Source: a virus | Virus record (IMG/VR): IMGVR_UViG_3300034062_000407 | Location: 1-29,916 of that record | Direction: 5' to 3' (one strand) | DNA length: 29,916 bases | Part shown: positions 1 to 1,745 of the stretch, piece after piece | How the letters are laid out: each line of letters opens with the position of its first letter | How positions within the stretch are numbered: position 1 is the first letter of the stretch | Notes under the pieces: generated by a model | The model's database searches: none | Seen by the model: the letters and a program-made list of their open reading frames with translations, nothing else | Told to the model about the DNA's origin: nothing | Position numbers and translations under genes: made by a program

Positions 1-524
1 CCCGCAATTCCCGCCTCCGCTTGGAGTTGTTGGCGTGGGCCACAATCCAAATTCTGTCTCTTTTATGTTTAGCTCCAACATCGGAAGCTCCCAGCACTCC
101 CCAGTTCGCATCGAACCCCATTTGGGCAAGGTCGCACAATACTCTGTCGAGTCCTCGAATAGTGAGCATTGGTGAGTTCTCAATGAATGCGTATTCTGGT
201 CGTACTTCGCAAATGATCCTTGCCATTTCTCTCCAGAGTCCTGATCGTTCTCCATTAAGTCCTGCACCTTTTCCTGCCGCAGACAAGTCTTGACAAGGGA
301 AGCCTCCTGAGATGACATCAACTTTTCCTGCCCAAGGCTTTCCATCGAATGTGCAGATGTCGTCCCAGATAGGGAATCTAGGTAAGAATCCATCAGCTTG
401 CCTTTGCAGTAAAACTCTGCGTGGGTAATCTTCGATTTCAACGGCACACACAGTTCTCCATCCGAGCAAATGTCCTGCAAGTATCCCCCCCCCCCCCCCC
501 CGCAAATAATGCCAACTCATTCAT
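1..524 (-). CDS. C5 DNA-cytosine methyltransferase, out of frame at a poly-G tract, 3' end at window edge
   Basis: Read leftward from the ATG at 524-522, the protein begins MNELALFAGGGGG. With the 17 G residues as written the frame then closes at a TGA at 440-438. Dropping one G restores a continuous frame to base 1: ILAGHLLGWRTVCAVEIEDY (SAM-binding motif I region), GGFPCQDLS (motif IV with the catalytic Cys), IENSP (motif VI, normally ENV) and KRDRIWIV (motif VIII). This is a typical phage Dcm-like enzyme transferring a methyl group from SAM to C5 of cytosine, perhaps protecting phage DNA. Target-recognition and motif IX/X regions are not in the window. The start codon overlaps the stop of the preceding gene (ATGA). 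Either the tract is a phase-variable switch, the gene is broken, or the homopolymer length is an assembly error. Confidence 0.85.
485..501. repeat. 17-base homopolymer (poly-C on +, poly-G in the methyltransferase)
   Basis: An uninterrupted run of 17 C on the + strand. On the coding strand it encodes the Gly-rich loop of methyltransferase motif I. Sixteen bases would keep the frame and give the family-length loop AGGGGGILAG; seventeen does not. Confidence 0.95.
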
Positions 525-922
525 GCACCGCCTTTTAATTTTGCAATTTTTGCTCGTATATTTTCTGGCATTGGTACAGCCTTTTTACTGTCTTGCTCGA
601 TCTTGACCAGTGCAGGGTCTTTTAAGGTCTTTGGCTTGATCTCTGGAATCTCAGCCCCATCCCATCGCTGTTGATTTAAATAAACCTTGGGTGCGGGTAT
701 GAATGCCCCATTGTCTTGAAGCCACTGAGCAGTGGTGGCCATCCATTGAATGTGTTTCAGGATAATGTGCTTTTGGCTGAAATAATAGGACTCAACCCAT
801 TTTTTCTTGCAAGCAGACTTTTCACCTTTTCGGACACATTTTGGATAAGCGATCCAGAATTCCTCAAAACCCTCGTCTGTCAGTGAAGTTCCTTTTGGTT
901 GTTCATACCCAAATAAGTCCAT
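521..922 (-). CDS. phage replication-protein-like (DnaT/O C-terminal-like) protein
   Basis: A 133-residue protein starting at MDLFGYEQ; the start is chosen because AAAGGAAAAG lies just upstream of this ATG. An upstream in-frame TTG at 952 would add ten residues. The core FEEFWIAYPKCVRKGEK and the later FIPAPKVYLNQQRWDG form a pattern I know from the C-terminal part of phage replication initiators (O/DnaT-like proteins), where it follows a DNA-binding domain. Here it stands alone, without an N-terminal helix-turn-helix or helicase-loader part. The tail is Lys-rich. Its stop overlaps the methyltransferase start, so the two are probably translationally coupled. A role in replication is inferred from the motif only. 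Confidence 0.7.
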   Translation of the reverse strand: MDLFGYEQPKGTSLTDEGFEEFWIAYPKCVRKGEKSACKKKWVESYYFSQKHIILKHIQWMATTAQWLQDNGAFIPAPKVYLNQQRWDGAEIPEIKPKTLKDPALVKIEQDSKKAVPMPENIRAKIAKLKGGA

Positions 923-1200
923 GCTCTTTTCCTTTAGCCATAGTTTCTCCAAGGGTGGATAGATGGCTGTTTCTATCCTGACCTCTCCAGACTTTTAATG
1001 ATGTATTACCTAAAAAGTCCCAAGTGCGCTTGACGGGTTAATTCGCTTATACATTTGGCCTTGTTACCACCGATGAACCAAATGCTTTACCAGTCGCTCA
1101 ACCAACGCTGGTCGCCTTTTGCTCTGGGGTGTACAGAGTGCGGTGTTTTCTTCCAAGCCATCCATGCAAATGCGCTTCTATCGTGTGGAGTACGGCCTCC
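923..1200. other. intergenic stretch with no supported gene
   Basis: Short open frames exist on both strands, but none has a ribosome binding site or recognisable product. A 7-bp inverted repeat CATTTGG/CCAAATG (about 1050-1083) spans a 19-base loop without a T-run. Leftward transcripts from the 1368-1397 promoter would cross this region only if they read through the terminator at 1201. Confidence 0.5.
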
Positions 1201-1325
1201 AAAAACAAAAACCCCTCAAATAACTCTGGTGGTCTTGGCTCTTGGCGAGAGCAACAGCAAACGAATGACGCTAATCAAAAGTTCACTTGCCGTCTGACAA
1301 GACCGCCACAGGTATCTGAGGGGTT
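1201..1325 (-). terminator. strong intrinsic terminator closing the structured RNA
   Basis: On the minus strand AACCCCTCA (1325-1317) pairs with TGAGGGGTT (1218-1210), extended inward by about 19 more mostly paired positions. It is followed at once by TTTTTGTTTTT down to 1201. The T-run exists only on this strand, which sets the orientation. Confidence 0.7.
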
Positions 1326-1361
1326 CTTTAATTAGCGTCAATCGTCTGATGCCACTCAGAC
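1201..1361 (-). ncRNA. candidate structured leader / small RNA, about 161 nt
   Basis: The predicted transcript runs leftward from about 1361, one helix turn after a TATAAT box, to a U-rich end at 1201. It starts with a hairpin (CGTCTGA/TCAGACG, 1343-1349 with 1356-1362). It then folds as a 28-position long stem (1298-1325 with 1210-1237) with only three mismatches and one G-U pair as RNA. A small GCTCT/AGAGC hairpin (1238-1252) sits in the loop. A 10-base pairing, ATTAGCGTCA (1331-1340) with TGACGCTAAT (1266-1275), crosses the long stem, so a pseudoknot or alternative fold is possible. No family I recognise. The layout resembles the lambda late leader (6S RNA); that function is inferred. Confidence 0.6.
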
Positions 1362-1367
1362 GCTTTG

Positions 1368-1397
1368 ATTATAAGCATACTTTTTTTAATCTTGCAA
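1368..1397 (-). promoter_or_regulatory. sigma70-like leftward promoter
   Basis: A perfect -10 TATAAT (1373-1368) is preceded by an 18-base spacer and TTGCAA (1397-1392; four of six matches to TTGACA). The spacer contains a 7-base A run. It lies just past, and slightly inside, the 3' end of the winged-helix gene. The predicted start is at about 1361, immediately at the first hairpin. It is the best promoter-like sequence I found and would feed the leftward late genes. Confidence 0.6.
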
Positions 1398-1745
1398 GAA
1401 TTTGCGTTTGTCACCAAATCTGGATGGATATTTTAGGAAATCATAAGCCCCCCTCCTGAACACCCGCGACTTCAGTTCATCGCCCTCATATATGCCAACA
1501 CCCACCCATGATGGGGCTTTGACCTTTACCCTGCTGTCATGGATTGCCTCTCGGCCACTCTGGGTCAAGTGCCATTCCTCACCGATCTCGACCACCAGCC
1601 CGAGCCTCTGCATATCGTCCAAATATCGGACAAAGTGGATTGATAACTGAGAATTCACAGTGTCCATGTTGGTGAATGATCGGCTTGTTCTACCGCCTCC
1701 AGCCAAGCGAACAAGAAGGGTTTTGTGGCCATGTGAGAGTTTCAT
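1386..1745 (-). CDS. small winged-helix-like phage protein, possible regulator
   Basis: A 119-residue basic protein. The N-terminal half (FVRYLDDMQRLGLVVEIGEE, then WHLTQSGREAIHD) has the look of a winged-helix domain: a helix, a two-strand wing and a 'LTQSGREAI' helix as in MarR-type proteins. The C-terminal part (GIYEGDELKSRVFRRGAYDF, then PSRFGDKRKF) follows a pattern seen in small uncharacterised phage proteins. Its start overlaps the stop of the Cys-rich gene (ATGA) and no separate ribosome binding site is seen, so it is probably translationally coupled. It lies directly upstream of the promoter/terminator element, making it a candidate for regulating it. DNA binding is inferred, not shown. 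Confidence 0.6.
   Translation of the reverse strand: MKLSHGHKTLLVRLAGGGRTSRSFTNMDTVNSQLSIHFVRYLDDMQRLGLVVEIGEEWHLTQSGREAIHDSRVKVKAPSWVGVGIYEGDELKSRVFRRGAYDFLKYPSRFGDKRKFLQD

Follow-up and report, generated by a model that had tools for sequence, protein, structure and literature searches.

In phage lambda, the late promoter pR' is followed by a terminated 6S RNA, by the terminator tR', and then by an operon that needs read-through. Elsewhere in lambda, in the order cro, tR1, cII, and O, a terminator lies between the gene for the Cro regulator and the replication gene. RNA II of plasmids primes or activates the origin. The put RNA of phage HK022 binds the zinc-binding domain of the RNA polymerase β' subunit and suppresses termination without a phage protein. 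This RNA is about 70 nt long, has two stem-loops, and is located downstream of early promoters (PMC9378689). The adenovirus VA-I RNA has a pseudoknot in its central domain and sabotages a host sensor (PMC6599070). The large ornate bacterial RNAs GOLLD, ROOL, and OLE form multimers, and GOLLD is lake-derived (PMC12286853).

The locus analyzed here shares features with several of these systems. By sequence, it resembles lambda pR'/6S/tR' in having a promoter, a terminated RNA of roughly 150–200 nt, and an operon reached by read-through. It differs in that replication genes are driven in most relatives, no Q homologue was found, the RNA is pseudoknotted and highly conserved, and a second structured leader is located behind the terminator. 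As in the cro–tR1–cII–O region, it is often found behind a gene for a small Cro-like or winged-helix regulator and before a replication-initiation gene, with a terminator between them. Unlike in that region, the RNA here comes with a promoter of its own after the regulator gene, and neither a nut site nor an N protein was recognized, though without a systematic search. Similar to HK022 put, it has a structured RNA near an early promoter and before early genes, with no recognizable phage antiterminator protein; in contrast to put, with its two stem-loops, the RNA is about 160 nt long with a pseudoknot and a built-in terminator. VA-I is likewise of viral origin, non-coding, similar in size, and pseudoknotted, and it provides a model for a trans-acting decoy, but its sequence, virus, and polymerase are unrelated, and it has no operon behind it. 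GOLLD, ROOL, and OLE are likewise ornate and conserved, whereas the RNA described here has only about 160 nt.

The window, i.e., the whole stretch of DNA analyzed, is a complete virus record of 29,916 bases. Promoter, 5' hairpin, pseudoknot, and intrinsic terminator were found in one unit on the minus strand, at positions 1397–1204. The features of this unit and its neighbors are as follows.

1386–1745, minus strand: winged-helix-like protein, upstream; no Pfam or PHROG match
1368–1397, minus strand: sigma70-type promoter, with TTGCAA at 1397–1392, an 18-nt spacer, and TATAAT at 1373–1368
1343–1362, minus strand: P1, 5' hairpin CGTCTG-AGTGGCAT-CAGACG (helix 1; 98.8% of cells paired; loop with invariant UGGC)
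1331–1340, minus strand: P2a, 5' strand of the pseudoknot helix, TGACGCTAAT (second inverted repeat; covariation)
1298–1325, minus strand: P3a, 5' arm of the long terminator stem (repeat, fold, helices 3 and 4)
1282–1294, minus strand: P4a, 5' arm of the inner helix (helix 5 of the alignment)
1266–1275, minus strand: P2b, 3' strand of the pseudoknot helix, ATTAGCGTCA, within the apical loop of P4 (covariation)
1253–1265, minus strand: P4b, 3' arm of the inner helix (alignment); also complements the end of P1 (competing P2 extension)
1238–1252, minus strand: P5, hairpin GCTCT-CGCCA-AGAGC, almost invariant
1210–1237, minus strand: P3b, 3' arm of the long terminator stem (repeat, fold, alignment)
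1199–1211, minus strand: U-rich tract of the terminator (sequence; retained in the alignment)
1019–1195, minus strand: element B2, a second leader, non-coding and conserved, immediately after the terminator; no intervening promoter seen
521–952, minus strand: replication-initiation-like protein, first downstream gene (phrog_9474, E 8e-13; phrog_270, E 1.6e-12)
2–520, minus strand: C5 cytosine DNA methyltransferase, second downstream gene, cut by the record end

The promoter sequence TTGCAA-18-TATAAT has 10 of 12 consensus matches. The first 20 kb of the window contain 31 promoter-like sites, a number similar to that in shuffled sequences (27.6), so the case for this promoter rests on its conservation. 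In 106 relatives, a 64-nt stretch spanning the promoter scored 10.7 bits, versus 5.7 bits for shuffled sequences. The -10 hexamer was recognized in 109 of the 112 distinct copies and always ends 2–4 nt ahead of a fixed position at the base of P1. Since the -10 element keeps nearly the same spacing to this hairpin, transcription very likely yields a discrete RNA of about 160 nt with its start near 1361, and P1 would stand at its 5' end. The base of the terminator, AACCCC...GGGGTTTTTGTTTTT, covers about 1325–1199; the U-rich tract comes after GGGG, and the predicted 3' end is at about 1204–1199. The original prediction had named a TATAAT with a -35 element at 18 bases, a hairpin, a long stem, and a U-rich terminator. 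All of these were found, on the minus strand, and promoter, structured RNA, and terminator do form one unit, with a start near 1361 very likely. That a discrete structured RNA unit exists here is well supported and highly probable.

In the 106 relatives, no sigma70-like promoter was found in the 300 nt behind the terminator, where scores lay below those of shuffled sequences (5.96 versus 6.74). In the 200 nt before three upstream gene families, same-strand promoters likewise scored no better than shuffles; the scoring used an approximate E. coli matrix and covers sigma70-like sites only, and host sigma factors may differ. Since no such site was found behind the terminator or before the upstream genes, transcription of the operon must apparently pass through the terminator.

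The folding energy of the RNA is -73.7 kcal/mol, compared with a mean of -45.8 for shuffled sequences (z = -6.9; 0 of 200 shuffles as good). As the original prediction held, the RNA is far more structured than termination requires. A repeat finder detected the long stem, with arms of 31 nt at 1298–1328 and 1207–1237 that are 84% complementary, as well as a second inverted repeat at 1255–1279 and 1327–1351, which the original prediction had overlooked. The arms of the second repeat interlock with those of the first, forming a pseudoknot that is invisible to nested folding. In total, the structure of this RNA class, herein referred to as A1, includes 50 pairs in six helices, and 95.9% of pair cells are retained in 41 aligned sequences. 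In this alignment, 17 pairs are changed on both sides, compared with 10.6 in shuffled sequences and 3–8 when partners are slid by 1–3 columns.

The predicted P2 pseudoknot is the best-supported helix of A1. Both sides vary in 8 of its 10 pairs in the 41-sequence alignment. All 99 distinct combinations of strands, comprising 69 different helix sequences, have at least 8 contiguous pairs, the longest run lying partly outside P2 proper in a few of them. Strands from the same phage pair over 10.6 bp on average, versus 7.1 bp when strands are exchanged between phages. Compensatory changes were the comparative check proposed with the original prediction, and they were found both in the 17 double-changed pairs and throughout P2. 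Helix 4 is invariant, as is nearly all of P5, so both are neutral on pairing. All covarying helices of the main fold are compatible in one structure.

The P1 loop UGGC and the P5 loop GCCA are retained in all 112 distinct copies and could form a kissing interaction. As both loops are invariant, covariation is silent on this putative contact, which is made more plausible by two copies in which the match reaches six bases (AUGCCA) and by the counterpart UGGCA/UGCCA in class A3 (see below). The only competing pairing found joins the end of P1 to the start of P4b, extending P2 at the expense of P1 and P4 and leaving the terminator untouched. Its columns 26/110 comprise 31 A-T, 5 T-A, and 5 T-T rows. 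This helix may reflect strand exchange during folding, for which the evidence is weak. The near-invariant core of the RNA is located in P5 and P3: GCTCTCGCCAAGAGCCAAGACC.

Two further RNA classes were found in place of A1. A scan for relatives of gene 521–952 gave 80 loci, and the RNA region is present in most of them, often with 75–90% identity. Among those with enough upstream sequence, 50 A1 and 16 A2 copies were called by pattern. The six remaining loci include three A1 copies missed by the pattern (L064, L071, and L078), two members of a third class, A3 (L053 and L055), and one locus with an A1 copy further upstream (L069). A2 occupies the same slot as A1 and shares little sequence with it. 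It is about 100 nt long, and the loop of its 5' hairpin pairs with a strand inside the terminator hairpin as a kissing loop. The paired strands differ between phages: GTAGGAA/TTCCTAC, GTGAGAA/TTCTCAC, GTGGAAA/TTTCCAC, GTAGTGGT/ACCACTAC, and GTAACGGT/ACCGTTAC. In total, 15 double-changed pairs were found over 11 A2 sequences. A3 is predicted to have the same order of helices as A1 with other sequences, its P2 being GCCAAGAG/CTCTTGGC; it seemingly comes from one phage type. Docking of the 5' end into the terminator hairpin may be the feature shared by the slot-1 classes.

The second slot, directly behind the terminator, is occupied by several types of structured leader, herein referred to as B. 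Since B begins at the end of the U-tract, its transcription implies read-through. By pattern, the 112 A1 copies are followed by 72 B1, 25 B2, and 8 B3 elements and by 7 others, of which by eye three are B1-like and one is B3-like. The window has type B2. Compensatory changes were found in 13 pairs of B1 (34 sequences) and in 13 pairs of B2 (a small set). A and B1 also occur together ahead of probable structural genes in another group of phages.

B1 elements (e.g., L065:856-1071:+, with about 75 similar loci) contain a direct repeat of 7–11 nt, with one copy inside and one at the 3' terminus. The two copies are alike within a phage and different between phages (mean common run 8.1, versus 5.2 when exchanged), and no consistent complementary partner of the variable repeat was found nearby. 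Further leaders unlike B1–B3 follow the same RNA in L179 and L188 (in both, directly behind A1) and in L150. Open reading frames antisense to the RNA and leader are present in the window (1055–1297 and 1129–1335, plus strand) and in L002 (4001–4360). The counterpart of the antisense frame in phage genome MW202484 is annotated as hypothetical protein UOF77725.1; such frames are probably a by-product of RNA conservation.

The genes behind the RNA were expected to be leftward late genes. The next genes in the window instead encode the replication-initiation-like protein, likely starting at ATG 922, and the C5 methyltransferase; the late genes do run leftward, beginning at the other end of the record, with the terminase small subunit from 29844. 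The window also contains a run of 17 C close to where the methyltransferase gene starts (485–501; poly-G on the coding strand, in a glycine-rich stretch); this run may represent either a slippage-prone switch or an artefact of sequencing. After removal of spurious frames, a replication-initiation homologue was found within 2.5 kb downstream in 100 of 129 distinct contexts. In another 8, the RNA is located behind the terminase large subunit gene (PHROG match), and large, probably structural, genes are next wherever the sequence continues; about half of the remaining contexts end early. Genes for RusA-like, methyltransferase, and HNH-like proteins come after, and recombination genes are opposite in direction. 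Gene names beyond PHROG and Pfam matches are our reading of the sequences. A tRNA gene (RF00005, 56.6 bits) was found at L222:1059-1130:+, in a record that has the RNA after a terminase gene.

The upstream gene varies among relatives: close relatives of the winged-helix gene 1386–1745 were found in few of the 80 loci. Its product, proposed earlier as the antitermination candidate, is therefore not a constant partner of the RNA. Roseobacter phages (e.g., CRP-811, 65%), whose early region is different from that of the window, have the terminases most similar to the one in the window. The latter is absent from the other 27 records with this RNA or its relatives. Thus, the RNA travels independently of that late module. 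As the original prediction held, no Q homologue is recognizable: the Q families PF06530 and PF03589 were found in none of the 28 records (the window and these 27), although an unrelated Q analogue may be present. An immunity RNA of temperate phages would be expected in phages with an integrase, but, serine integrases aside, the search for integrase PF00589 found it in 0 of the 28 records, which are possibly incomplete.

A 24-base piece of the core matched at least 120 stretches of viral contigs. A model of A1, R1, scores the window at 165 bits and finds a single place per record in 26 records, aside from mirror-strand echoes. Matches on the opposite strand (21–47 bits) occur because the RNA is nearly palindromic. 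Hence the R1 match of only 36 bits in the A3 record G003 is in itself no evidence; the helices of A3 are. In record G023, the two record ends overlap within its single A1 copy: its locus (L195) starts and ends inside A1, at 1–111 and 34215–34374. This overlap suggests that the genome, of about 34 kb, is complete and either circular or circularly permuted.

No credible match was found in Rfam 15 (4227 families) at curated or relaxed thresholds; the best sub-threshold match was a microRNA model (22.7 bits versus a cutoff of 76). No tRNA or tmRNA was found in the window. A 21-base piece of the core had no exact match among 84,980 prokaryote species, with one genome per species. The replication protein matched a single prokaryote genome, in a small contig that was binned with a Comamonadaceae MAG and has A2 and B2. 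No copy of the RNA was found in 301 genomes of the family of this MAG, a search that had no positive control in cellular genomes. The contig hints at a betaproteobacterial host, as far as binning can be relied on. Among phage records, the only match was element B2 in one Manatee Spring genome, MW202484, which has A2 in place of A1; stretches of A1–B1 and A1–B3 were unmatched. No description of this RNA was found in the literature covered, from which subscription journals are mostly absent. The predicted RNA is a common family in uncultured phages, present in no catalogue searched and with strong covariation support. Judged from the alignments, A1 constitutes a new RNA family with P1, the P2 pseudoknot, the P3 terminator stem, P4, and P5, with covariation. 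The term freshwater, as used below, is our reading of the sample context (a lake MAG and a spring phage) and not of viral-contig metadata.

We give about even credence to the reading in which the feature is a unit for a pseudoknotted phage RNA of about 160 nt and also a terminator-gated leader that drives the downstream operon by read-through. Host RNA polymerase would start at about 1361, and the nascent RNA would knot itself through the strand after P1 and the helix tip inside the terminator hairpin. Most transcripts would end near 1204, yielding a stable RNA, and a regulated fraction would continue past the terminator into leader B and the replication operon. The level of read-through would be set by the knotted 5' domain or by a partner bound to the near-invariant P5/P3 core. 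This reading is favored because the operon behind the RNA has no visible promoter, because A and B are found together even beside structural genes, and because the classes share slot layout and not sequence. Against it, none of the covarying helices is clearly an antiterminator incompatible with the terminator stem. Additionally, the single copy per record, the near-invariant P5/P3 core, and the protected 5' end would be just as expected of a trans-acting RNA. Such an RNA is the main, close rival, although we hold it to be true with clearly less than even probability. It would be an abundant and degradation-resistant small RNA with a host protein or RNA as its binding partner; it could, for example, divert a nuclease or a defence sensor as a decoy, or regulate host transcription. 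Its place before the operon would be incidental, and weak read-through would feed the operon. The discrete predicted 5' and 3' ends, the fit of all helices into one compact fold, and the near-invariant core beside a drifting yet paired P2, as in a binding platform, all argue for it. The same is true of the occurrence of this single-copy RNA in two different operon contexts and of the analogy with VA-I RNA, a saboteur of a host sensor (PMC6599070). The structured leader and the operon without a visible promoter of its own that generally come next argue the other way, and the presence of A2, with little shared sequence, in the same slot suggests that position matters.

The remaining explanations are less probable than either of these. 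In a self-acting antiterminator of the HK022 put type, the nascent fold would bind RNA polymerase, and its own and later terminators would be ignored. The structured RNA is indeed promoter-proximal and located before an operon, as put is downstream of early promoters (PMC9378689), and neither a Q homologue (28 records) nor a downstream promoter was found. This explanation is nevertheless improbable: put has about 70 nt and two stem-loops, the present RNA has a strong terminator at its end, and its fold gains the last arm only when RNA polymerase gets to that terminator. A transcript that primes or activates a nearby origin would account for the tight association with the replication-initiation gene (100 of 129 contexts). 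Eight contexts beside the terminase in a probable structural operon, several related operons without the replication-initiation gene, and the absence of direct-repeat families (iterons) at 900–1800 make such a role very improbable. The lambda-like late switch of the original prediction, in which a Q-type protein opens a tR'-like terminator behind a late promoter and a 6S-like RNA, stands in its layout of promoter, terminated RNA, and operon, and 8 of the 129 contexts do place the RNA between terminase and probable structural genes. As an account of the window it is unlikely, and the least probable of all these explanations, given the replication operon that comes next here and in most relatives, the lack of Q families, and the sharing of the RNA by phages without the window's terminase.

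A broader picture can be put forward tentatively. Freshwater phages may possess an interchangeable two-part RNA cassette, with at least three knotted self-terminating RNAs (A1, A2, and A3) in the first slot and at least three leaders (B1–B3), perhaps five, in the second. Such a cassette would provide a novel form of RNA-only control of operons, without a recognizable phage antiterminator protein, and would be movable between replication and structural operons. If the RNA gates the replication operon, central phage genes would be under the control of RNA folding, where lambda uses the proteins N and Q. If it is trans-acting, it would join the few known cases in which phages direct a stable RNA against their host. 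In both cases, the RNA ends, the knot, and the terminator offer precise tests.
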